From: a virus
Reading direction: 5' to 3' (one strand)
Virus record (IMG/VR): IMGVR_UViG_3300031673_010277
Span: 1 to 42,448 of that record
Length of the DNA: 42,448 nucleotides
Positions within the stretch are counted from its first letter, which is position 1, and the number at the start of each line of letters is the position of its first letter. Below, in pieces: positions 1 to 39,445 of the stretch. The notes under the pieces are model-generated. The model searched no databases. It was not told where the DNA came from and worked only from the letters and a program-made list of their open reading frames with translations. Both the position numbers and the translations under genes were made by a program.

Positions 1-1
1 A

Positions 2-2017
2 CCGCAAGATTTACAACAATACCAATTTGTGTCTATTGATGTTCCTTTTACTGGCCAAATATCAGAACAAACAGTTCAAGTAAAACCATCTGAGTCTGCT
101 TCATATGAGAGTTATACAGAAGTTCCGAGTTTGTTTTTAATGGATGCAAATACAAAAGGATATGTATCAAGAAGAACAGATTCGGGAATAAACCTACAAT
201 TCGGAAACGGATTGATTGGATATCAACCCGAAGCAGGTTCGACCATTCTTGTTAATTTATCTTTAACACAAGGTTCGGGTGGAAATGTTATTTCTGGATC
301 AATAAAAAGTGGAGATAGAATTTACAACACAACAGATGCCGGTATAACTGAAATTGTTCAGTACACTATTACCAATCCTGCTCCTGCCTTTGCTGGGGAA
401 GATGAGGAATCTCTTGAAGAGATCAGACGAAATGCTATTATCAATATCTCTGCCCTGGAAAGAATTGTAACCGAAAACGACTTTATAAATGCAGATGTAA
501 TCATTGATAATTCTCCAATTGGCCCAAATTCGTTGCCTGTATTAAAACGGTCAGATTTGAAAGTGAATGAGATCGCGTTGTTTTCAACTATCTATTTTGC
601 TGATGACTTGGTTCCTACGAGAGATGTGTTTGAAACATTTAACACTTTATATATTCCAAGACAGACTGTTATTAATTTTGATGGAGTTGATTATTATACA
701 GTATTCGATATTGAAATTGACCCTTTAAATTCAAATGCAGAATATACTTATATTATGTATCAGATTGAGCAAATTCCTTCATTGGTTACAAGCTACGGAT
801 CTGATTATGATTTATATGCTGATCTTCTGACTGTTGAAAGGTCTGGTTTGACAGCAACATATACATTGGATTATAAATCTACAGAGGTTGATTCAATTAC
901 AACTACCTGTACAATGGAAATTTCAGAAACGGGTGCTTCATATAATATGACAAATGACGGCACAGCGTTCGTTTACTACTTTGCAAATAATCAAGCTATC
1001 CCAAAGGGTGAATTGACTTACTTCTTCACTATAAGTCATCCTACAGAAGGAACTATCGCTCAATACTCAACACAGTTTATATTTAGACAAGACTTGAGTG
1101 ATTTTACAATGTCAGATGTTGTTCAGTCAGATTCAACATCATATATTGTATATGATATTCCTACGGTGGAAAAGGATTATTATGATAGTATAAACCAAAG
1201 AGATTTTGAATTACAAGTAATGCAGCAATTGCTTACAACTCTAACATTTAAAGATTACAGAATGTTAACTGACTTTGTTAATTTTAAATTTTCAAATACT
1301 ACAGGTATTCTGCGTAATATGCAACTAAATGATGTGGACTTGTTACCTGTATTGTCAATTAAATGTAATATGCCATTGCTTCCAACTGAGGGTGATAGAT
1401 ATATTGTCGGAACAGGCAGTACCGGAGATTGGGCAACCCATGAGGATGATGTGGCTACATATACAAAGCAAGTAACCAGCGTTACAACTGATACTACGAG
1501 TATTATAGATACGACTGCGGTCATTGATGCAACAACTATTATTGATACGACTGCTATTATACACACAACCGTGACCACAGATACAACCAGTTATTTATGG
1601 ATTTATACTGAACCAAAAAGCGATCAAATGGTTTATGTAGTCAGTGAAGATTATAAGTATATATTTTCAGACCCTGGTTGGGTAAAACCAGAGTATATGA
1701 TTCCGCTTCAAATTTCTCTTGATGTATTCAGGGAATCTACATACACAAGTTCGTTAGGAGCTTTAACTCAAGCAATTCGAGAGGCGTTGGTTGCAGCATT
1801 TGCGGAAAGATTTGGTATCAATGCTGAAATTTACAGATCTGAAATTGTGGATGTTGTTCAAAGTGTTGATGGGGTTGATCATTGTCGTTTGATTGCTCCA
1901 GAATCAAGTATCTTTTTCAACTTTGATATTGATACATTTACACAAACAGAATTGTTGGAATATGCACCAGAGTATGTTTATTTTACAGAAGATGATATAG
2001 CAATCAGGATATTCTAA
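2..2017 (+). CDS. Baseplate wedge protein, gp6/baseplate J-like (5' end outside window)
   Basis: This is a structural protein of the contractile-tail baseplate wedge. The reading frame is open to the left edge, so the true start lies outside; the first in-window start-like codon, a GTG at 29, is probably internal. The N-terminal part has the baseplate J/gp6 signature: FGNGLIGYQPEAGS followed by a Gly/Ser-rich GSGGNV stretch, then EDEESLEEIRRNA and ALERIVTENDFINADV, which matches the conserved 'ESLEE.RR.A ... R.VT..D' block of that family. The middle (about residues 200-470) is an elaboration I cannot assign. A Thr/Ile/Asp-rich repeat follows at about residues 485-520. The C-terminal part ('YTSSLGALTQAIREALVAAF', then 'VVQSVDGVDHCRL') again resembles the J-like C-terminus. 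It sits one base before the next + strand gene. The gp6-like assignment is an inference from motifs. Confidence 0.72.
   Translation, partial: PQDLQQYQFVSIDVPFTGQISEQTVQVKPSESASYESYTEVPSLFLMDANTKGYVSRRTDSGINLQFGNGLIGYQPEAGSTILVNLSLTQGSGGNVISGSIKSGDRIYNTTDAGITEIVQYTITNPAPAFAGEDEESLEEIRRNAIINISALERIVTENDFINADVIIDNSPIGPNSLPVLKRSDLKVNEIALFSTIYFADDLVPTRDVFETFNTLYIPRQTVINFDGVDYYTVFDIEIDPLNSNAEYTYIMYQIEQIPSLVTSYGSDYDLYADLLTVERSGLTATYTLDYKSTEVDSITTTCTMEISETGASYNMTNDGTAFVYYFANNQAIPKGELTYFFTISHPTEGTIAQYSTQFIFRQDLSDFTMSDVVQSDSTSYIVYDIPTVEKDYYDSINQRDFELQVMQQLLTTLTFKDYRMLTDFVNFKFSNTTGILRNMQLNDVDLLPVLSIKCNMPLLPTEGDRYIVGTGSTGDWATHEDDVATYTKQVTSVTTDTTSIIDTTAVIDATTIIDTTAIIHTTVTTDTTSYLWIYTEPKSDQMVYVVSEDYKYIFSDPGWVKPEYMIPLQISLDVFRESTYTSSLGALTQAIREALVAAFAERFGINAEIYRSEIVDVVQSVDGVDHCRLIAPESSIFFNFDIDTFTQTELLEYAPEYVYFTEDDIAIRIF
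1481..1590 (+). repeat. Degenerate Thr-rich coding repeat inside the baseplate gene
   Basis: An in-frame stretch encodes tandem degenerate copies of a 6-residue unit (IIDTTA, VIDATT, IIDTTA, IIHTTV). It is flanked by TTDTTS on both sides, so the run is symmetrical. At DNA level the unit is about 18 bases, ATT-ATT-GAT-ACG-ACT-GCT-like. The copies differ at third positions, so it is a protein-level rather than a recent DNA-level repeat. It probably forms a beta-rich spacer or a variable surface loop (inference). Confidence 0.7.
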
Positions 2018-31072: not shown

Positions 31073-31450
31073 CTATCCCCTTAACATTTTAAGTTTTTTC
31101 GCAAATTGGGTTAAGATTTTTTCCGCTTTGTTTTCATCAATAACCCACACCTTTCTTCGACGTGGAGGGATTGTATTTTCAGGATCATCAGAGATTCTAT
31201 ATTTCTCTAATGTACTGTAAATCGCAACATACACTTCTTCGTCTTCCCTTTCCAATGTTAAAAACCCGATTTCTTTATTATTCCTTCCAGGCACATCAAG
31301 CGATAGAAACACTCTTGGTCCTGTTGGATTCAATTCGGGATACTGAATAGATGATTTTTCTTCTTGAATAATTTGATCACATATAACCCTAACTTGATGG
31401 GTTAAATCCGTGTCCTTCAATTCACTTAACAAATGTTGCAAAATTCCCAT
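31073..31450 (-). CDS. Hypothetical 125-aa protein upstream of the cassette
   Basis: Not recognised. A mixed alpha/beta small protein: helix 'QHLLSELKDTDLTHQVRV', strands 'PRVFLSLDVPG', 'EIGFLTLEREDEEVYVAIY', then 'RRRKVWVIDENKAEKIL' and a Lys-rich end. I chose ATG 31450 because a TTG two codons earlier overlaps the upstream ribosome site; AAAGG lies nine bases before the ATG. It lies three bases from the large PRTRC-B-like gene and seven from the Sm-like protein, and is probably in the same transcript. It could be a cassette accessory factor, but there is no direct evidence. Confidence 0.5.
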   Translation of the reverse strand: MGILQHLLSELKDTDLTHQVRVICDQIIQEEKSSIQYPELNPTGPRVFLSLDVPGRNNKEIGFLTLEREDEEVYVAIYSTLEKYRISDDPENTIPPRRRKVWVIDENKAEKILTQFAKKLKMLRG

Positions 31451-31456
31451 ATTCAA

Positions 31457-31789
31457 TTACCTTTTAAATGGTCTGATTTTAAACCTTTGATTTTGGTCTC
31501 CGCCCAATTCAAGCCAATCAACTTGGTTGAATGGAACCGATCTCCAATCTTTCTTTTCGAGATCATAAACATGAATGATTCCACTCTGTTGCATCAGCTT
31601 TAATATTTTTGGCATATTTACATTTTTGGGATACTGTTTTTTTGGAATCTTTGTGAAGTCCAAGGTACATTTCATAATCCTTATTGTACCATCTTTTTTG
31701 ACGAACTTTACTTTAGCTTCGCCCGTAGCATACAGTTTTTCCCAAAACTCTACTGCACTACGAATAACATCATGATCTGCCTGTGGCAT
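31457..31789 (-). CDS. Sm-like/WYL_2-type SH3 beta-barrel protein
   Basis: A 110-residue protein with the signature of small phage SH3/Sm-like barrels (DUF2693/WYL_2): 'AKVKFVKKDGTIRIMKCTLD' followed by 'IPKKQYP' and 'IIHVYDLEKKDWRSVPFNQV', i.e. a 'kkdGt.R.m..T...iP' strand pair and a second strand pair ending 'v.D.e...WRs...d.v'. Such proteins are common in T4-like and jumbo phages; their ligands are mostly unknown. It lies after the radical SAM gene (three-base gap) with GGGAGGG as ribosome site. Assignment to the family is from memory of the motif. Confidence 0.6.
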   Translation of the reverse strand: MPQADHDVIRSAVEFWEKLYATGEAKVKFVKKDGTIRIMKCTLDFTKIPKKQYPKNVNMPKILKLMQQSGIIHVYDLEKKDWRSVPFNQVDWLELGGDQNQRFKIRPFKR

Positions 31790-31792
31790 TTA

Positions 31793-32842
31793 TTAACCCT
31801 CCCGTTTATCTAAATGAACCAGATCTCCTTCTCCATCTTCATGCTTATCAATATGTTGACTCATCATTAAACATGAATGGTTACATAATTTACAATGTCT
31901 TCGTTTATCTTGACACATCAGTTCATAAAAGTCCTTCGATACCATTGTATCATAATTCTTTTCAAACAATTCGCTAACGTGCAGGTGTGGTGTTAATACC
32001 CCTTTTATACGAAGACATAATCTCATGGTTCCATCAGCATCGACTGTTACATTATGAACTCCATGTTCGAGTTCACAATCAAAGTTTGATGGTAAGGTAT
32101 CAAACATTCTTGGGATTAATACGTCTTTCATGTGAATAAATAAATCATCATCATGCATTATTTTCCCAAGCATTTGTGATAATTTCCATGATTTTTGAAC
32201 AAGTTGATCTGGATCTTTGACATTTGAAAAGTCGTAATATGGACTTTTTGCAATATCTACAAATGTAATATCACTGTATATTTCATTCTGGCTGAGGTCA
32301 TAAACAAGATCATACAGAAAATCTTTATTTTCATTCATGACTGTTATCTCAGCTACTACATCTTTTACATCTCCCTTTGCTTGAATTTCTTTTAATCGCT
32401 TCATTCCTTCAACGCTTTTTCTTATTCGATCTTCTCCAGCATATCCTGGATGATTAAATATTGGATCAACTGAACTTGTAAATCCTTCAACATAATCTGT
32501 TTCTCTAAATAAGCGTTTTATCAAAGGTTGAATTTCAGGGGTATTGTTGCTTATGATTGTATAATAAATTTCATTGTCATTACAGAAGTTTATAATTTCT
32601 GGTAGGTCTTTTCTCAATAAAGGTTCCCCACCATAAAAGATATGAAACACATTTGGGTTTTGTTTTTTAAATGCTTTCAATGCATTTATAACAACTTCTG
32701 TTGACATTTCATTTTTAATGTAATGTTCCATCTGTGGATAACCCATTGGCATATCAGGATAATTTTTAACGATTGCACAATACTCGCAATCTAAATTACA
32801 CTTCCTTGTCAATATCCAGTTTACAATTCTTATTAGGCTCAT
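31793..32842 (-). CDS. Radical SAM protein with SPASM-like C-terminus
   Basis: A 349-residue radical SAM enzyme: the [4Fe-4S] motif CNLDCEYC (C-x3-C-x2-C) near the N-terminus ('WILTRKCNLDCEYC'), then 'FHIFYGGEPLLRKDLPEII' (GGE SAM-binding motif) and 'YYTIISNNT'. The C-terminus has extra cysteines ('DCELEHG', 'MRLCLRI', 'CQDKRRHCKLCNHSC') that fit a SPASM/twitch-type auxiliary cluster, as in enzymes that modify peptides (anSME, RiPP maturases). I chose ATG 32842: GGGGG lies three bases upstream, and it leaves a clean gap to the upstream gene; an ATG seven codons earlier overlaps that gene. The neighbour is a MKIK-TNSSS protein, a possible substrate. It is not QueE-like. Confidence 0.86.
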   Translation of the reverse strand: MSLIRIVNWILTRKCNLDCEYCAIVKNYPDMPMGYPQMEHYIKNEMSTEVVINALKAFKKQNPNVFHIFYGGEPLLRKDLPEIINFCNDNEIYYTIISNNTPEIQPLIKRLFRETDYVEGFTSSVDPIFNHPGYAGEDRIRKSVEGMKRLKEIQAKGDVKDVVAEITVMNENKDFLYDLVYDLSQNEIYSDITFVDIAKSPYYDFSNVKDPDQLVQKSWKLSQMLGKIMHDDDLFIHMKDVLIPRMFDTLPSNFDCELEHGVHNVTVDADGTMRLCLRIKGVLTPHLHVSELFEKNYDTMVSKDFYELMCQDKRRHCKLCNHSCLMMSQHIDKHEDGEGDLVHLDKREG

Positions 32843-32850
32843 GTTCCCCC

Positions 32851-33228
32851 TTAATAAATACATTCAAAAATTAGGTCGTCCCACTTTTTTTGAAATTGTT
32901 CAACTACATTATAATCGACTGCCATATAAACAGCAATCTTTTTCTTTTGAATTACGTCTTTACATGCGTTATATGTTGATTCGCCCAAGGCATTAAACAA
33001 TGGCCCACGAGCTTTTGATATCCAATCTAAAGGACCATCATTTGTATATCTATTGAGTTTGTGTATTGTTGTGAATGCCTCATAGATTCTGACTCCTTCA
33101 TTCCCCGCATCAGGATGTCTGTCAAGCTCTTTAACGTGCTCTCTCAATTCTTCAAGCTGAGTTTTATTCACTCCTAATATAAAACATGACGATGAACTGT
33201 TTGTTACAAAATCAGTTTTTATTTTCAT
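32851..33228 (-). CDS. MKIK-DF-TNSSS N-terminal signature protein 1 (125 aa)
   Basis: A 125-residue protein whose first residues, MKIKTDFVTNSSSSCFILG, nearly match those of two other small proteins here (36673-37122 and 37308-37607), while the bodies differ. I recall this N-terminus on many otherwise unrelated hypothetical proteins, but not a demonstrated function. The remainder is helical ('LEELREHVKELDRH', 'TYNACKDVIQKKKIAVYMAV'). It is encoded directly before the radical SAM gene (start 32842, gap of eight bases) with AAGGAG upstream. The Ser-rich cluster could be a modification or recognition segment. It could also simply be a conserved folding start; a RiPP-like role is a hypothesis. Confidence 0.6.
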   Translation of the reverse strand: MKIKTDFVTNSSSSCFILGVNKTQLEELREHVKELDRHPDAGNEGVRIYEAFTTIHKLNRYTNDGPLDWISKARGPLFNALGESTYNACKDVIQKKKIAVYMAVDYNVVEQFQKKWDDLIFECIY

Positions 33229-33236
33229 AGAACTCC

Positions 33237-35426
33237 TTAACTCAACGCCAGAGTCTGATCCGCTTCAACTTGATCCTGATGTTGATGTGAAATGATAAAG
33301 ATTGATTTTCCAACCTTCAATTTGTTTAATACTTTTGCCACATACCCAATGTTTTCATCATCGAGCGCATCGAATATTTCATCAAACAACAAGATGTTAA
33401 TTTTCATATTCTGCATATTCGCTTGTAGCTCACCAAGCGTCAATATTGTTGCTATATCAACGATTCGTGTTTGCCCACCAGATAACTGAACTCTTAAATT
33501 TGCTTGGGTGTGTGTATCCAAAACTCTAACAGAAATCTTATCTCTGAACTCACCCGCTTTTGTTTCTGCAAGAGTATCGAATGAAACTATGTATCGACCA
33601 TTGGTCAACATATCTAAATACTCTGACACCTTTTGATTCATAAATGGAATTGATTCATCAATCAACATAGAAGGCATGCCTGCTGATGAAAATCCTGTTT
33701 TCCAGAACTCCAAAACACTTTGCCTTACTTCCAAAGTTTTCACATTGCTTGCAATCTGTTTGATTGTTGATTTTAAATCAATCTCCCTTTGTTGATACTT
33801 TAATAATTGATCAGCATCATATTCTTTTTCTTCTTCAGTTTTTATATTGCTTTCAATAACAGCATGACCATTGTCTAAGTTCTTAATGGTTCCTTTAACA
33901 CCATCCACTTTCAATTGATGATCAGCCGCCTCGGTTTTCAATTCATCCGTTTCAGCTTGTCTTTTGAGCAAATCCGCTTTTTCTTGTTTTGCCTTTTCTT
34001 CAAGCTGTTCCGTTTGTTGTTTTGCTAAGGCATCGACCTTTTGAAATGTTTGGGTCAATCTCTCGTTTATGTTTTGATATTGATCTTGTTGATCTTTGTC
34101 AATTTCATCTATTGCATCTTGAGTTGATTGAATTGTATCATTCATATCGTTTTCTTTTGCAACGTGTGTTTCTTTTACTGATTTAATTTGTGACTCAATA
34201 GATGCAATCTCTTTATTATTTGTTGCTATGTTTCCTTCATGTCCCTGAACCTTCGCAATTAACGATTCTCGGGTTTTATCATTCACATCCTGCTCACATG
34301 TCGGACATGATGAAAACTCTTTCTCAAGAACATTTGAACGGATTTCATCTATTCTTGATTGGTTTGATCTGTTGTCTGCAAGCAAATCATTCTTCTTTAT
34401 ATCAAGTTCATGAAGCAATTGTTTACATTTATCAGTAGCCTCTCGTAATTTTAATACGATTGTCTCTTTTACACTTACCAATGCTTCTTTTGCTTTAATT
34501 GCTGTATCCCGAACTTCTTTTGCTGCTTCATCTGCCGCTGATTGCAATTCATGTTTCTTCTGTTCCATCTGAATCTTTAAATTGTTAGACAACGACTGAT
34601 ATTTTGCATCAAGGGTTTCAAGTTCTACATTTATCTTTGCAAGCTCGATGGTTAATGTTTCAACATTGAATTGGGTTTGTTCGAGTTTATCAAGCTCTTT
34701 TTTCCAATTATCTGAAAGACGTTCATTGTCTTCTAAATCCCTTTTCAACTGAGCGATTATTTCTTTTTGATCTGTATAGAATTTCTTCTTCAAAGCTTTC
34801 AACATTACGATTTGCTCAAGCGTATCTTCCAAAATTCCATGTTTGACTTTTCCTTGATTTGATAGATTGTCAATCTCATTCCTGACTGTTTTTAATCTTG
34901 CATCCGTTTCTTTATAATATAGAATGTATTGTTCGAGCATGAGAATCTTTCTGAATATTTCCTTCTTATCAGAATCAACAAGATCTGTAAAGAAGTCTTT
35001 GACCTTTTGCCCGAACATTAAAGTATTCATAAATGATTTTTGAGGACAAATCAATCGCTCGATTTCAGGTAATACTTCTCGATGTCCTGATTTAATGTCC
35101 ACACCATTCTTATTTAGTACAACCGTGTTACCCATTTTTGTATATTTTTGATACCGGTTGACTTTATACTGATCGTCATTTATTTTGAAATTGACCCATG
35201 TATGACAATTCTTTCCGACAACATTATTTATTACATCATCTCCACGTGCTCCCTTTGATGTTGTACCAAATAATGTAAACGGAATAGCATCCAATGACAT
35301 TGTTTTACCGATTCCATTTGGACCAGTCATCAATGTGATTGTATCATTTGTAAATGTGTGGGTCATTACATCAATATATGGACCATAATTTTCCATTCCG
35401 ACTTCTTGAAAAGTTATATCTCTCAT
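33237..35426 (-). CDS. Rad50/SbcC-type recombination nuclease subunit (T4 gp46-like)
   Basis: A 729-residue SMC-like ATPase. Walker A is GPNGIGKT (35-42); the arms are a long coiled coil (about 170-570) with a zinc-hook CPTC (C374, C377) in the middle; signature LSGGQTR (648-654) and Walker B ILLFDEIFD (678-686) follow, then the H-loop 'IFIISHQHQDQ'. It pairs with the nuclease encoded just upstream (TAA immediately followed by ATG, so coupled). In T4 the gp46/gp47 complex resects DNA ends for recombination-dependent replication and degrades host DNA. The arm is short, as in phage versions. Confidence 0.95.
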   Translation of the reverse strand: MRDITFQEVGMENYGPYIDVMTHTFTNDTITLMTGPNGIGKTMSLDAIPFTLFGTTSKGARGDDVINNVVGKNCHTWVNFKINDDQYKVNRYQKYTKMGNTVVLNKNGVDIKSGHREVLPEIERLICPQKSFMNTLMFGQKVKDFFTDLVDSDKKEIFRKILMLEQYILYYKETDARLKTVRNEIDNLSNQGKVKHGILEDTLEQIVMLKALKKKFYTDQKEIIAQLKRDLEDNERLSDNWKKELDKLEQTQFNVETLTIELAKINVELETLDAKYQSLSNNLKIQMEQKKHELQSAADEAAKEVRDTAIKAKEALVSVKETIVLKLREATDKCKQLLHELDIKKNDLLADNRSNQSRIDEIRSNVLEKEFSSCPTCEQDVNDKTRESLIAKVQGHEGNIATNNKEIASIESQIKSVKETHVAKENDMNDTIQSTQDAIDEIDKDQQDQYQNINERLTQTFQKVDALAKQQTEQLEEKAKQEKADLLKRQAETDELKTEAADHQLKVDGVKGTIKNLDNGHAVIESNIKTEEEKEYDADQLLKYQQREIDLKSTIKQIASNVKTLEVRQSVLEFWKTGFSSAGMPSMLIDESIPFMNQKVSEYLDMLTNGRYIVSFDTLAETKAGEFRDKISVRVLDTHTQANLRVQLSGGQTRIVDIATILTLGELQANMQNMKINILLFDEIFDALDDENIGYVAKVLNKLKVGKSIFIISHQHQDQVEADQTLALS

Positions 35427-36458
35427 TTATACCTCACAGCTCTGAATAATATCAAAGGCTTCTTTCATATATAATTCAATTTGATCTTCGGGGATTTCTT
35501 TTATCTCTAGATACTTTTTGATCTTATCTTCTTGACTCATGGAGCTTGTAATCCCACGATCAGTAATATCAGCCTCGGTTTTGTCGACCACGTTAAATTC
35601 ACCTTTGAATCCGGTGAGGTCAACCTTTTCTCTCATGATAACCTTCACATGATCGCCATCATCTCTGGCTTTCTTTGCAGCTGCCAAAATTTCATCAATG
35701 TTGCCAGCCTTGATTTCAAGTTCAATATGTTTCTTGTAATCATTGATTGGTACACTTTGAACATCTAATGTATCTGTATCAATAACCAAGAATCGTTTTA
35801 AGTCATTCTTTTCACCCCAATCCAATTGAATCAATGAACCTGAGTAATACAGAGCAATGTCTGATCGAATGATTTCTTGCGGTTTATGGTAATGCCCAAG
35901 TAGGACTAATTTATATCTACCAATCAAATCCTTTAAAGATATGTCTGATATGATACTTAATCCTGAATTTAATATTCCTTCACTCAACCCGAAATGTGAA
36001 ACCAGAATATTCGCTTTATGTTCCCTGATTATTTCAGGCAGTTTTGTTGAATATGGAACGAATAATACATCATCGCTCTCTCTGTGATATACTTCTGAAT
36101 AAGGTACCCATTTTACATTGTCAACTTTCGCTAACGGCCTTAATGCTGAAACTACATCATCTCCTTTACCCGATAGATCGTGGTTACCGTCAATGACAGT
36201 GAACAACAACTTATCTTCAAAATCTTCAAAGTATTGGAGCATAATTTCCTGAGCGATTGCATAGATGACTGACTTGCCGTGCAATACATCGCCACCGATA
36301 ACAAGTTCTTCAATGCCGTTATCAATGCAGTATTTTGCAACTTCATATAATGCACTTTTGATACTATGCAATCGCTCTGGTAAATTGGTATCATCTTCAA
36401 TTTTATCCGAACCGTAACGTGAAAGATGAATATCTGCTATATGTGCAAATCTACTCAT
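35427..36458 (-). CDS. Mre11/SbcD-type nuclease subunit (T4 gp47-like)
   Basis: A 343-residue calcineurin-like phosphoesterase with all metal-binding motifs: D9 and H11 in 'HIADIHLSR', D57 in 'VIGGDVLHGK', N92-H93-D94 in 'IDGNHDLSG', H155 in 'LVSHFGLSE', H189 and H191 in 'LLGHYHKPQ'. The C-terminal 100 residues form the cap and partner-binding part ('DVQSVPINDYKKHIELEIKAG'). Its ATG overlaps the end of the prepilin-like gene by four bases (ATGA), and it is followed at once by the gp46-like gene. Together they form the end-processing nuclease. Confidence 0.95.
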   Translation of the reverse strand: MSRFAHIADIHLSRYGSDKIEDDTNLPERLHSIKSALYEVAKYCIDNGIEELVIGGDVLHGKSVIYAIAQEIMLQYFEDFEDKLLFTVIDGNHDLSGKGDDVVSALRPLAKVDNVKWVPYSEVYHRESDDVLFVPYSTKLPEIIREHKANILVSHFGLSEGILNSGLSIISDISLKDLIGRYKLVLLGHYHKPQEIIRSDIALYYSGSLIQLDWGEKNDLKRFLVIDTDTLDVQSVPINDYKKHIELEIKAGNIDEILAAAKKARDDGDHVKVIMREKVDLTGFKGEFNVVDKTEADITDRGITSSMSQEDKIKKYLEIKEIPEDQIELYMKEAFDIIQSCEV

Positions 36459-36703
36459 AATGTTTTACCGATTCCTTTATCTGTAGATTTTACTTCTTCC
36501 TGCTTTAATGGTGGTTGAATTTTTGTGTCCTCTTTTTCATTTAAAGTAGCTTCTTGTTCCTGAGTTATTACTTCAACCTGTTTTGTTTTCGTTGTCTGAG
36601 AGATACCAGCTATGAACGGAACAGTAATTGCTAACAAGATTACTATAATGAAAATACAAACAATCAATTCGATTAAGGTGAATCCTTTTTTGCTTCGTAA
36701 CAT
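36455..36703 (-). CDS. Small membrane protein with type IV prepilin-like N-terminus
   Basis: An 82-residue protein opening with MLRSKKGFTLIELIVCIFII: a basic leader, the prepilin cleavage motif K-K-G/F-T-L-I-E (Glu at mature position 5) and a 20-residue hydrophobic helix, as in type IV pilins and pseudopilins. The C-terminal 40 residues are charged and Thr/Gln/Glu-rich, not a pilin head. AAAGGAG lies seven bases before the ATG, so translation is well supported even though it overlaps the upstream gene by 31 bases. Host prepilin peptidase (PilD) could cut it before F8 (inference). It might interfere with host pili or anchor a complex; I have no function. Chance similarity is unlikely given a full motif. 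Confidence 0.72.
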   Translation of the reverse strand: MLRSKKGFTLIELIVCIFIIVILLAITVPFIAGISQTTKTKQVEVITQEQEATLNEKEDTKIQPPLKQEEVKSTDKGIGKTL

Positions 36704-37122
36704 AATTCAACTCCTTTGTTTACTGTGGTTACTAAATCAGATAGATCAATGTGATTTTTTAAAATATCAACTATCTGTTCTTCTTTGATTCCGAATATGG
36801 AGTTGTTTCCTTCGCCACCCATTTCAGAATCTGAAACGATAAAACCATTTATATTGCATATGTCTAATACTGCATAATATATTGGACCTGGAGTTCCTTC
36901 ATCTCCATATGACCAAAGATGCTGTCCTTCTTTTAGTTCTTCAATTGAGTCTTCTATATCACAGAATATTTCATCATTGAATGCTTTATCTGATGTGTCA
37001 CTATAATATTCATTTTTATATGACTTATGTGCTTGATTTCTTGTGACTTTGAAATTGTTTGGTACAAATACTACATATGCTGTCGATGAACTATTTGTAA
37101 TGAAGTCAACTTTTATCTTCAT
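36673..37122 (-). CDS. MKIK-DF-TNSSS N-terminal signature protein 2 (149 aa)
   Basis: A 149-residue protein with the shared N-terminus MKIKVDFITNSSSTAYVVF. The body is acidic and contains 'YGDEGTPGPIYYAVLDICN' and 'VDILKNHIDLSDLV', not recognised. It overlaps the small Cys-rich gene upstream by 17 bases and the prepilin-like gene downstream by 31 bases. The ribosome site is AGGAAA, weaker than its neighbours. The three TNSSS proteins are listed together because the first 14 residues are nearly the same; the rest is not clearly related. Confidence 0.6.
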   Translation of the reverse strand: MKIKVDFITNSSSTAYVVFVPNNFKVTRNQAHKSYKNEYYSDTSDKAFNDEIFCDIEDSIEELKEGQHLWSYGDEGTPGPIYYAVLDICNINGFIVSDSEMGGEGNNSIFGIKEEQIVDILKNHIDLSDLVTTVNKGVELCYEAKKDSP

Positions 37123-37321
37123 AAGTGTTTCCTGCTGCTCCTGCTTTATTCATTATATCTTGTACAAATTCTGCAAAGTCACGACACGCACTATGATTTA
37201 TAAATGATCTTGTACATGATGCAGTAACAAGACAATCAATACATGGACTACCTTCTCTTGTCGATAATTCTTTCATAGCTTTTCCGAATCGTCGTGTGTC
37301 TTTGCGTTTACGAGTGGTCAT
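37106..37321 (-). CDS. Small Cys-rich protein (71 aa)
   Basis: A small basic protein with a CIDC pair, then two more Cys ('CLVTASCTRSF', 'HSACRDFAEF'), a likely metal- or Fe-S-binding motif. The chosen ATG 37321 is two codons inside a longer TTG-start frame. It overlaps the upstream TNSSS gene by 14 bases and lies in the same transcript. The family is not recognised; similar small Cys proteins are common in large phages. Residues at the N-terminus are Arg/Lys-rich (RKRKDTRRFGK), so nucleic-acid binding is plausible. Confidence 0.45.
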   Translation of the reverse strand: MTTRKRKDTRRFGKAMKELSTREGSPCIDCLVTASCTRSFINHSACRDFAEFVQDIMNKAGAAGNTYEDKS

Positions 37322-37607
37322 AATCAATATGCCCGCTTGGGACGCCTATTGCCTCAAGCAATGAAAGCATGCTGAAATTATCCATTGATGTATCCCCATA
37401 TATTTTTTCAGAGTCTTCTCTGATTGTCCACTCATCCATTTTACTGATATAACCAAAATCATAGTGACCGGGTTTTCTTTGAGATATCATTGCAGCCGCT
37501 TCAAGGTGATCATAAATAAGCAACTCTTGCTCAGGTGTTAAATTGCTTCTTAATATTGTGAATGATGCACTCGAACTGTTTGTAATAAAATCAACTTTTA
37601 ATTTCAT
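37308..37607 (-). CDS. MKLK-DF-TNSSS N-terminal signature protein 3 (99 aa)
   Basis: A 99-residue protein with the shared N-terminus MKLKVDFITNSSSASFTIL. The body includes a helix ('PEQELLIYDHLEAAAMIS') and an aromatic segment 'HYDFGYISKMDEWTI'. Its ATG overlaps the stop of the helicase gene by four bases (ATGA), with GGGGGGA upstream as ribosome site. It lies next to the Cys-rich gene and about 4.4 kb upstream, in transcription order, of the first TNSSS protein (32851). Function unknown. Confidence 0.6.
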   Translation of the reverse strand: MKLKVDFITNSSSASFTILRSNLTPEQELLIYDHLEAAAMISQRKPGHYDFGYISKMDEWTIREDSEKIYGDTSMDNFSMLSLLEAIGVPSGHIDYDHS

Positions 37608-39007: not shown

Positions 39008-39445
39008 TTATATCTTGAATAGCGGCTCTAATGAATATGTCGCTTTTGAATTTTCGTTTTCATACACGGTTACATAATCAATTAGAACATTCGGATACAT
39101 TTTAGTTAATGCTATTTCGACTGACTCAAATATATCCTTCGCCAATCTCTCTGCTGTTGGGTCATGATCAACTGTGATCACTCTCATTCCCATTCCCTCA
39201 AGCTGTTTCCCTAACTCTGCATCTGTTTCATTCAATAACAAACAGTGATCTAGTCCATCAAGAAATCCTCCAACCAATGCTTTCAAATTGGAGAAATCAA
39301 TGACCATATCATTTTCATCTAATTCTGAAGCTTTAACTCCAATCAATACTGTGAAGTTATGACCATGCATTGAGAAACATCTACCTCTATGTTTACTCAA
39401 TCTATGTCCCATAGGAAATGTGAATCTTTTTTCAATTCTGAACAT
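39008..39445 (-). CDS. queD: 6-carboxy-tetrahydropterin synthase (QueD)
   Basis: A 145-residue PTPS-family enzyme with the zinc His set H14 ('GHRLSKH'), H27 and H29 (MHGHN), catalytic C23 ('RGRCFSMHG'), 'LDH' (65-67), PTAE (96-99) and 'TVYENENSKATY'. The Cys just before the MHGHN motif marks QueD rather than a sepiapterin-making enzyme. It converts 7,8-dihydroneopterin triphosphate (from FolE2) to 6-carboxy-tetrahydropterin, on the road to preQ0. AAGGAG lies eight bases before the ATG, overlapping the last codons of the topoisomerase gene. Confidence 0.92.
   Translation of the reverse strand: MFRIEKRFTFPMGHRLSKHRGRCFSMHGHNFTVLIGVKASELDENDMVIDFSNLKALVGGFLDGLDHCLLLNETDAELGKQLEGMGMRVITVDHDPTAERLAKDIFESVEIALTKMYPNVLIDYVTVYENENSKATYSLEPLFKI

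Follow-up and report, generated by a model that had tools for sequence, protein, structure and literature searches.

A conserved N-terminal tag on unrelated proteins of large phages, Bacteria and Archaea tracks a SPASM-type radical SAM enzyme

Three small genes in a 42,448-nucleotide stretch of viral DNA (IMG/VR record IMGVR_UViG_3300031673_010277, positions 1 to 42,448; the whole of this stretch is hereafter called the window) start with nearly the same residues, MK[IL]KxDF[IV]TNSSS, and continue into different bodies. Here, we report that this start is a protein tag that recurs in uncultured large phages, Bacteria and Archaea, and that it is linked to a family of SPASM-type radical S-adenosylmethionine (SAM) enzymes, which we call rsA. 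We propose, with a probability of about 0.72, that it is the N-terminal substrate tag of rsA, a dedicated enzyme that would modify the core T9-N10-S11-S12 and by which unrelated proteins would gain a common chemical handle.

A shared start on unrelated proteins

The three tagged genes of the window share the minus strand, and a purine-rich stretch precedes each of them. Tagged protein 1 (125 amino acids (aa), MKIKTDFVTNSSSSCF) is encoded at 32851..33228, and its tag, residues 1-16 of MKIKTDFVTNSSSSCF, occupies 33181..33228, is conserved at the protein level and is preceded by an AAGGAG-like ribosome site. Tagged protein 2 (149 aa, MKIKVDFITNSSSTAY) lies at 36673..37122 with its tag at 37075..37122, and tagged protein 3 (99 aa, MKLKVDFITNSSSASF) at 37308..37607 with its tag at 37560..37607. 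The motif begins exactly these three genes: its back-translated, degenerate form has three matches in the window and none in 100 shuffles, and a looser scan of the window found no fourth copy. The first-pass annotation, made from the letters of the window, had pointed to these genes and had described the bodies as different. Both points hold, as blastp assigns the bodies to three different families (clusters 8, 6 and 2), which comprise, for proteins 1, 2 and 3, respectively, 29, 57 and 55 tagged homologues (loci partly overlapping). Neither Pfam, NCBIfam nor PHROGs identified a family for the three proteins, with phrog_7397 touching only the N-terminus of the 125-aa protein (E=0.0012), and the 99-aa protein had no significant Foldseek match in PDB or BFVD.

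The annotation was too modest about the extent of the similarity, for which it had named the first 14 residues of the three proteins. The full motif reads MK[IVF][KR]xDF[VI]TNSSS[STA]S[FY][IV][IVL], with conservation over residues 1-18 and background level from residue 19 onwards. Exact scans with the degenerate window pattern recovered it in at least 120 uncultured viral loci (197 proteins among the matches listed) and in at least 118 loci of bacterial and archaeal genomes, including Clostridia, Bacteroidales, Coriobacteria, Deltaproteobacteria, Sulfurimonas, Methanoculleus, Methanosarcina, Lokiarchaeota and others. Altogether, about 550 distinct tagged N-termini were found in uncultured large phages, Bacteria and Archaea, and the 825 tagged proteins with 60 aa or more form about 111 body families (all gathered loci, some of which overlap). 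The tag is not specific to phages. In phages, the tags come in tandem arrays, with up to eight tagged proteins per locus. The motif is not named in Pfam, NCBIfam or PHROG. A tblastn search of the 22-aa tag against a phage collection gave no match, the query being too short, and tagged proteins queried in 50,697 phage records returned no tagged homologue.

Selection on the protein and the invariant core

The motif is strictly N-terminal. Within 3.8 Mb of loci, the shorter pattern [FY][VI]TNSS[ST] has 544 occurrences, and in 538 of these a start codon stands exactly six codons before it, which places the F at residue 7; only two occurrences have no start codon nearby. AGY as well as TCN codons encode the invariant serines, and the remaining codons differ in their third positions; this mixing indicates that selection acts on the protein. 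One could imagine a recombination or regulatory site in DNA or RNA that only incidentally encodes the N-terminus, and the tandem arrays with swapped bodies do resemble cassette shuffling. However, the free use of both serine codon types and the variable third positions refute such a nucleic acid element, to which we give next to no chance.

Since the patterns of the viral and cellular scans required T9-N10, and the later locus scans required N10 (one of them also T9), invariance at these positions is by construction in those sets. A permissive scan that demanded only five of eight core positions, whose five-of-eight matches look like chance and whose reversed-DNA control gave 2, found N10, S11 and S12 effectively invariant, T9 almost always threonine (rarely serine), and position 13 serine, threonine or cysteine; N10 was kept in all members that did not resemble chance matches. 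Phe7, by comparison, can be replaced by Tyr, Glu or His, and two records with the variant MKF[KR]xSEVTNSSS (SEVTNSSS for DFVTNSSS) have a divergent rsA immediately adjoining one such tag. M1-K2-[KR]4 and [FY]16 are conserved as well, and M1 is probably kept, because a lysine at position 2 blocks removal of the methionine. No cysteine is conserved in residues 1-18, with Cys15 present in only about 5%.

A flexible extension on folded bodies

An alignment of 136 representative tagged proteins is conserved only in the tag columns. Tagged proteins as a whole have a median length of 135 aa (half are 121-167 aa, the longest 717 aa), and their recognisable bodies include BspA-type leucine-rich repeats (LRR), BRCT and Zn-ribbon-like domains; most bodies are unnamed. 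The family phrog_7397, which is itself unnamed and for which no link to a tag or to a radical SAM enzyme is given, matches 16 of the 136. In gut and rumen Clostridia (L217, L127, L209, L225, L135), large tagged proteins with BspA-type LRR or BRCT domains lie beside rsA or in the same genome.

An AlphaFold2 (AF2) model of the 99-aa window protein, run with 38 relatives, is mostly confident over the body (residues 11-99, block means 77-95), while tag residues 6-10 have a predicted local distance difference test (pLDDT) score below 50 and the first strand spans residues 14-19. In this model, the tag would be an exposed, flexible extension that abuts a folded body rather than part of a shared fold. 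Because it abuts the fold, there is no room for a classical leader/core cut. Of the recurrent neighbour families listed for the tag loci, which are only partly annotated, none was recognised as a protease or an exporter. Of the initial suggestion that the conserved N-terminus is a signal, leader or modification tag, the last part is retained, as the element behaves as a modification or recognition tag associated with a radical SAM enzyme; a cleaved leader or classical signal does not fit.

Another possibility is that the tag is simply how a single, highly diverged fold begins, or that the tagged proteins all descend from one small family. Residues 14-19 do form a strand in the model, and some families may be distant relatives, as in the tagged protein and untagged paralogue described below. 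Against this stand bodies as different as LRR, BRCT and Zn-ribbon-like domains, the predicted disorder of the tag, paralogues that keep the body without the tag, and the genome-level dependence on rsA. We consider a structural start hardly credible, and reject it on the diversity of the bodies and the AF2 model.

Linkage to the radical SAM family rsA

Unsupervised clustering of neighbouring genes ranked rsA first, in 55 viral and 84 bacterial loci, where it is usually the next gene. The nearest tag and rsA genes are on the same strand in 236 of 238 pairs, with a median gap of 25 nt. Members of rsA match Radical_SAM or SPASM in Pfam, and none reaches the cut-off of a curated NCBIfam radical SAM equivalog. 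The best solved relatives by profile are SuiB (4.9e-13), SkfB, PqqE, CteB and anSME, and an AF2 model (pLDDT 91.6) is nearest to SuiB (5v1q/5v1s; Foldseek 2.1e-13) and anSME. The cluster-binding motif is the non-canonical CX7CX6C in about half of the members (for example L222:5148-6215), the canonical CX3CX2C in others and CXCX3CX3C in a few.

The association extends to whole genomes. All 14 tag genomes tested contain rsA, at a single locus each except for one that is split over two contigs, and 111 of the 118 bacterial tag loci among the matches listed (93 + 17 + 1) have rsA either within the locus or further away in the genome. When about 490 genomes of one class and one family were drawn without bias, all four tag genomes were rsA-positive and no strict tag was found in about 483 rsA-negative genomes (Fisher p=8.6e-8). 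The presence of rsA predicts that genomes negative for the strict tag should carry a relaxed one, and this was so in four of six, which had a relaxed tag gene beside rsA (for example MKYRTGFVTNSSSSSN or MKICLDYVTNSSSSSF); the other two hold the lowest-scoring rsA homologues. Starting from viral rsA, a tag was found within 6 kb in 67 of 80 loci, with no tags in the reversed-DNA control, and 37 of 48 tag-bearing viral records contain rsA (43 with rsA or rsB, a second radical SAM family). Tag and enzyme also co-vary, as rsA with CX7CX6C or CXCX3CX3C goes with R4 (325/328) and rsA with CX3CX2C goes with K4 (121/158), in counts uncorrected for phylogeny.

The window record, 42 kb long, is a fragment. 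Its left edge (1..631, plus strand) is 90% identical in amino acid sequence to a relative (G536:44002-44632) whose contig extends a further 4.6 kb as far as an rsA gene (49175-50197), which is overlapped by a fourth tagged gene (50193-50597). Given this identity, the rsA of the window virus most likely lies just outside the window, about 4.6 kb beyond base 1.

Several observations weigh against rsA as the modifying enzyme. Partners are missing in 13 of the 80 viral rsA loci and in five of the 48 tag-bearing viral records, most of which are fragments. Seven bacterial tag loci, again among the matches listed, are in assemblies without detected rsA; one of these, L238, is a complete chromosome whose tagged gene is probably disrupted. 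Four rsB-phage records have tags and no detected rsA, including G551 with five tags. Moreover, the co-variation figures take no account of phylogeny, and a non-catalytic binding role of the tag predicts the same linkage.

This last point defines an alternative in which the tag is only a docking or recognition signal, bound by rsA or another partner, with the chemistry taking place elsewhere on the protein or on another molecule. The N-terminal position, the flexibility, a length greater than one reaction site and the additional conservation of the flanking residues speak for docking. On the other hand, the bodies share nothing that could be a common target elsewhere on the protein, and the strongest invariance falls on the reactive-type T-N-S-S and not on the flanks. 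We regard pure docking as unlikely, although with a chance large enough to be kept in mind.

Outside the tag system, a query of the 50,697 phage records with rsA led to pseudo-T-even phages that encode a SPASM radical SAM protein about 27% identical to it. This protein is present in L438 and in 171 phage records, mostly from phages of Klebsiella, Enterobacter, Cronobacter, Citrobacter and Escherichia, and the single locus inspected had no TNSSS tag nearby.

The radical SAM gene adjoining tagged gene 1

The first-pass annotation had noted that one tagged gene directly precedes a radical SAM gene, and this is correct. This gene, rsB (31793..32842, minus strand), has a CX3CX2C motif and a Cys-rich C-terminus. 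Its open reading frame is listed from 32863, and homologue starts support an internal ATG at 32842, preceded by GGGGG, as the likely start, 8 nt past the stop of the 125-aa gene. The family of tagged protein 1 is mostly found directly 5' of rsB. However, rsB is distinct from rsA, with MoaA as its nearest solved relative, and the enzyme that tracks the tag is rsA and not the adjacent rsB; the proposed link to a radical SAM enzyme survives with a different partner.

Could rsB modify the tag, alone or in a second step after rsA? In the majority of 15 loci, it adjoins a tagged gene or has one nearby, and in the tag-ascertained set every rsB record larger than 200 kb also has rsA. Conversely, no tag lies within 6 kb of rsB in 31 of 62 viral loci, many large rsB records have neither tag nor rsA, and rsB was not seen as a neighbour in bacterial tag loci. 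Tag and rsA are associated among 25 rsB records (p=0.007): six have both, 14 neither, one rsA only and four tag only, and rsB records without tags mostly lack rsA too. A contribution of rsB to the modification thus has a small probability, similar to that of docking, and rsB as a universal tag partner is rejected.

The 3' side of rsB encodes a WYL_2/Sm-like SH3-barrel protein (31457-31789, minus strand; 2.1e-10) in most related phages, and the next gene (31073-31456) is likewise kept, which makes this a conserved rsB cassette.

The tag in STAND/NACHT operons

A fixed gene order, STAND(NACHT) - small protein - tagged protein - rsA, recurs in 19 bacterial and archaeal loci, over the extent that each locus covers. 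Examples come from Bacteria, methanogenic archaea and Agrobacterium plasmids (L132, L161, L178, L134, L129, L198, L439-L441), and plasmid loci of Agrobacterium and Rhodobacter have the same layout with a VSNSSS tag variant. The STAND proteins are Avs2-like (PADLOC Avs2 1.7e-22; NACHT 3.9e-5, below the gathering cut-off), and their N-terminal domains vary: Trypsin_2 (1.8e-5) and SMEK_N (3.2e-42) were recognised by Pfam and a TIR-like domain by eye. Comparison by hhalign identifies the small protein as a paralogue of the tagged one (probability 96.6%) that keeps the body and has no tag, which implies that the body can do without the tag and that the tag marks one partner of the pair. The operon is a candidate undescribed anti-phage system. 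In four of these loci, a family of about 310 aa (fam70) lies 3' of rsA (for example L129:2413-3336 and L138:3313-4278).

The operons also bear on the idea that the tag is a transport or packaging signal, for export, for capsid loading or for a contractile injection system. T4-type internal proteins are targeted to the capsid by an N-terminal sequence that is processed by the prohead protease, and a conserved N-terminus with varied bodies in tandem phage arrays would fit this pattern. Nevertheless, the presence of this tag in chromosomal operons of archaea and bacteria with STAND NTPases makes T4-type capsid targeting unlikely. Moreover, the tag has no hydrophobic or twin-arginine region, and its constant neighbour is rsA and not a protease or a secretion gene. 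Any transport role for the tag is, on this evidence, very improbable.

Proposed modification and known systems

If rsA does act on the tag, this relative of SuiB, anSME, PqqE and SkfB would bind the flexible first ~16 residues of unrelated proteins and make an oxidative, radical-based change within the invariant T9-N10-S11-S12. Because position 7 is variable and cysteine is absent, Phe7 cyclophanes and thioethers are not expected as the common product, and the reaction is placed in this core. The leading options, by analogy, are Ser/Thr side-chain oxidation as in anSME, giving a carbonyl or formylglycine-type product, or a side-chain cross-link inside the core; neither would need Cys or Phe7. 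The earlier idea that the Phe might be the modified residue is thus unlikely to apply universally, since Tyr, Glu and His also occur there. The tag would stay uncut, and the change would provide one handle for many proteins, be it a reactive group, a binding face or a switch. Bacteria and archaea would use it in the STAND/NACHT immune-like operon and with stand-alone proteins, while large phages, of one of which the window is a fragment, encode their own rsA together with up to eight tagged proteins per locus.

Several radical SAM/SPASM systems resemble this arrangement. The maturases of ribosomally synthesized and post-translationally modified peptides (RiPPs), such as SuiB, SkfB, PqqE and CteB, share with rsA the profile, the fold, the adjacency to a presumed substrate gene and a conserved substrate motif, and rsA likewise stands as a SPASM-type maturase beside its presumed substrate. 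In contrast, the rsA substrates are folded proteins of about 111 unrelated families, with the motif at the extreme N-terminus and no leader/core split; a median of 135 aa, conservation that ends around residue 19 and a strand from residue 14 do not describe a short precursor with a leader and a released core. Sactipeptides and ranthipeptides form thioethers through a Cys in the modified region, which the tag lacks, and the invariant aromatic residue of aromatic cyclophanes (3-CyFE) is not found at position 7 (F/Y, with E/H in variants), leaving F/Y16 as a possible site. The SPASM enzyme anSME, a fold neighbour of rsA, changes a Ser or Cys in a short motif of a full-size protein. Its substrates form a single enzyme family with the motif (C/S)x(P/A)xR; the tag does not contain this motif, and TNSSS starts at residue 9 in many families.

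The nearest published idea is the pairing of FxSxx-motif peptides with a radical SAM-SPASM gene in NTPase-based conflict systems, described for VMAP ternary systems (Kaur et al. 2020, PMC7159879). Both share a short motif and a radical SAM-SPASM gene in NTPase conflict systems; unlike those peptides, the tag is an N-terminal TNSSS without the FxSxx motif. The bacterial operon also resembles the Avs/bNACHT anti-phage systems in having a STAND/NACHT-type ATPase with a variable N-terminal effector (trypsin-like, SMEK, TIR-like) and in being scattered over distant lineages. Unlike them, it keeps its four genes, among them those for the tagged protein, the untagged paralogue and rsA, in a set order, and PADLOC does not name it as a system. 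Our literature search for the motif, or for radical SAM combined with NACHT/STAND, phage or RiPP, found no description of the pair, with most subscription papers and non-PubMed Central preprints lying outside the search. The tag and rsA may represent motif-directed modification by a SPASM enzyme, and might even form a category of their own.

It is tempting to go further and speculate that this is a general N-terminal tagging system of Bacteria, Archaea and large phages, in which rsA would recognise MKxKxDFVTNSSS on any protein and turn the TNSS core into a new chemical group, from which about a hundred unrelated families would gain one functional handle; with its use in NLR-like STAND immunity and its copy in phages, the tag would then be a contested host-virus code. 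We hold this broader version to be possible, at somewhat less than even odds. If the proposal is right, a fixed N-terminal tag would direct a post-translational modification to full-length proteins that are otherwise unrelated, in two cellular domains and in viruses, and the enzyme family responsible would be one that no curated model names. Moreover, it would offer a handle on many unannotated small phage proteins, make the tagged protein and the radical SAM enzyme parts of a STAND/NACHT immune-like operon, and supply a small, transferable tag with which new chemistry could be put on proteins.

Neighbouring genes in the window

Other genes lie between and near the tagged genes, all on the minus strand. 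An 82-aa protein with a type IV pilin N-methylation motif (36455-36703; Pfam N_methyl 2.5e-8) is encoded between tagged genes, and a pseudopilin-like gene stands next to tagged genes in other phage loci too (L064:9849-10109). Between tagged genes 2 and 3 there is a 73-aa Cys-containing open reading frame (37106-37327; CIDCLVTASC...C) with no family match. Finally, a QueD/PTPS homologue (39008-39445; 3.6e-30) suggests a 7-deazaguanine-type pathway in the window phage.

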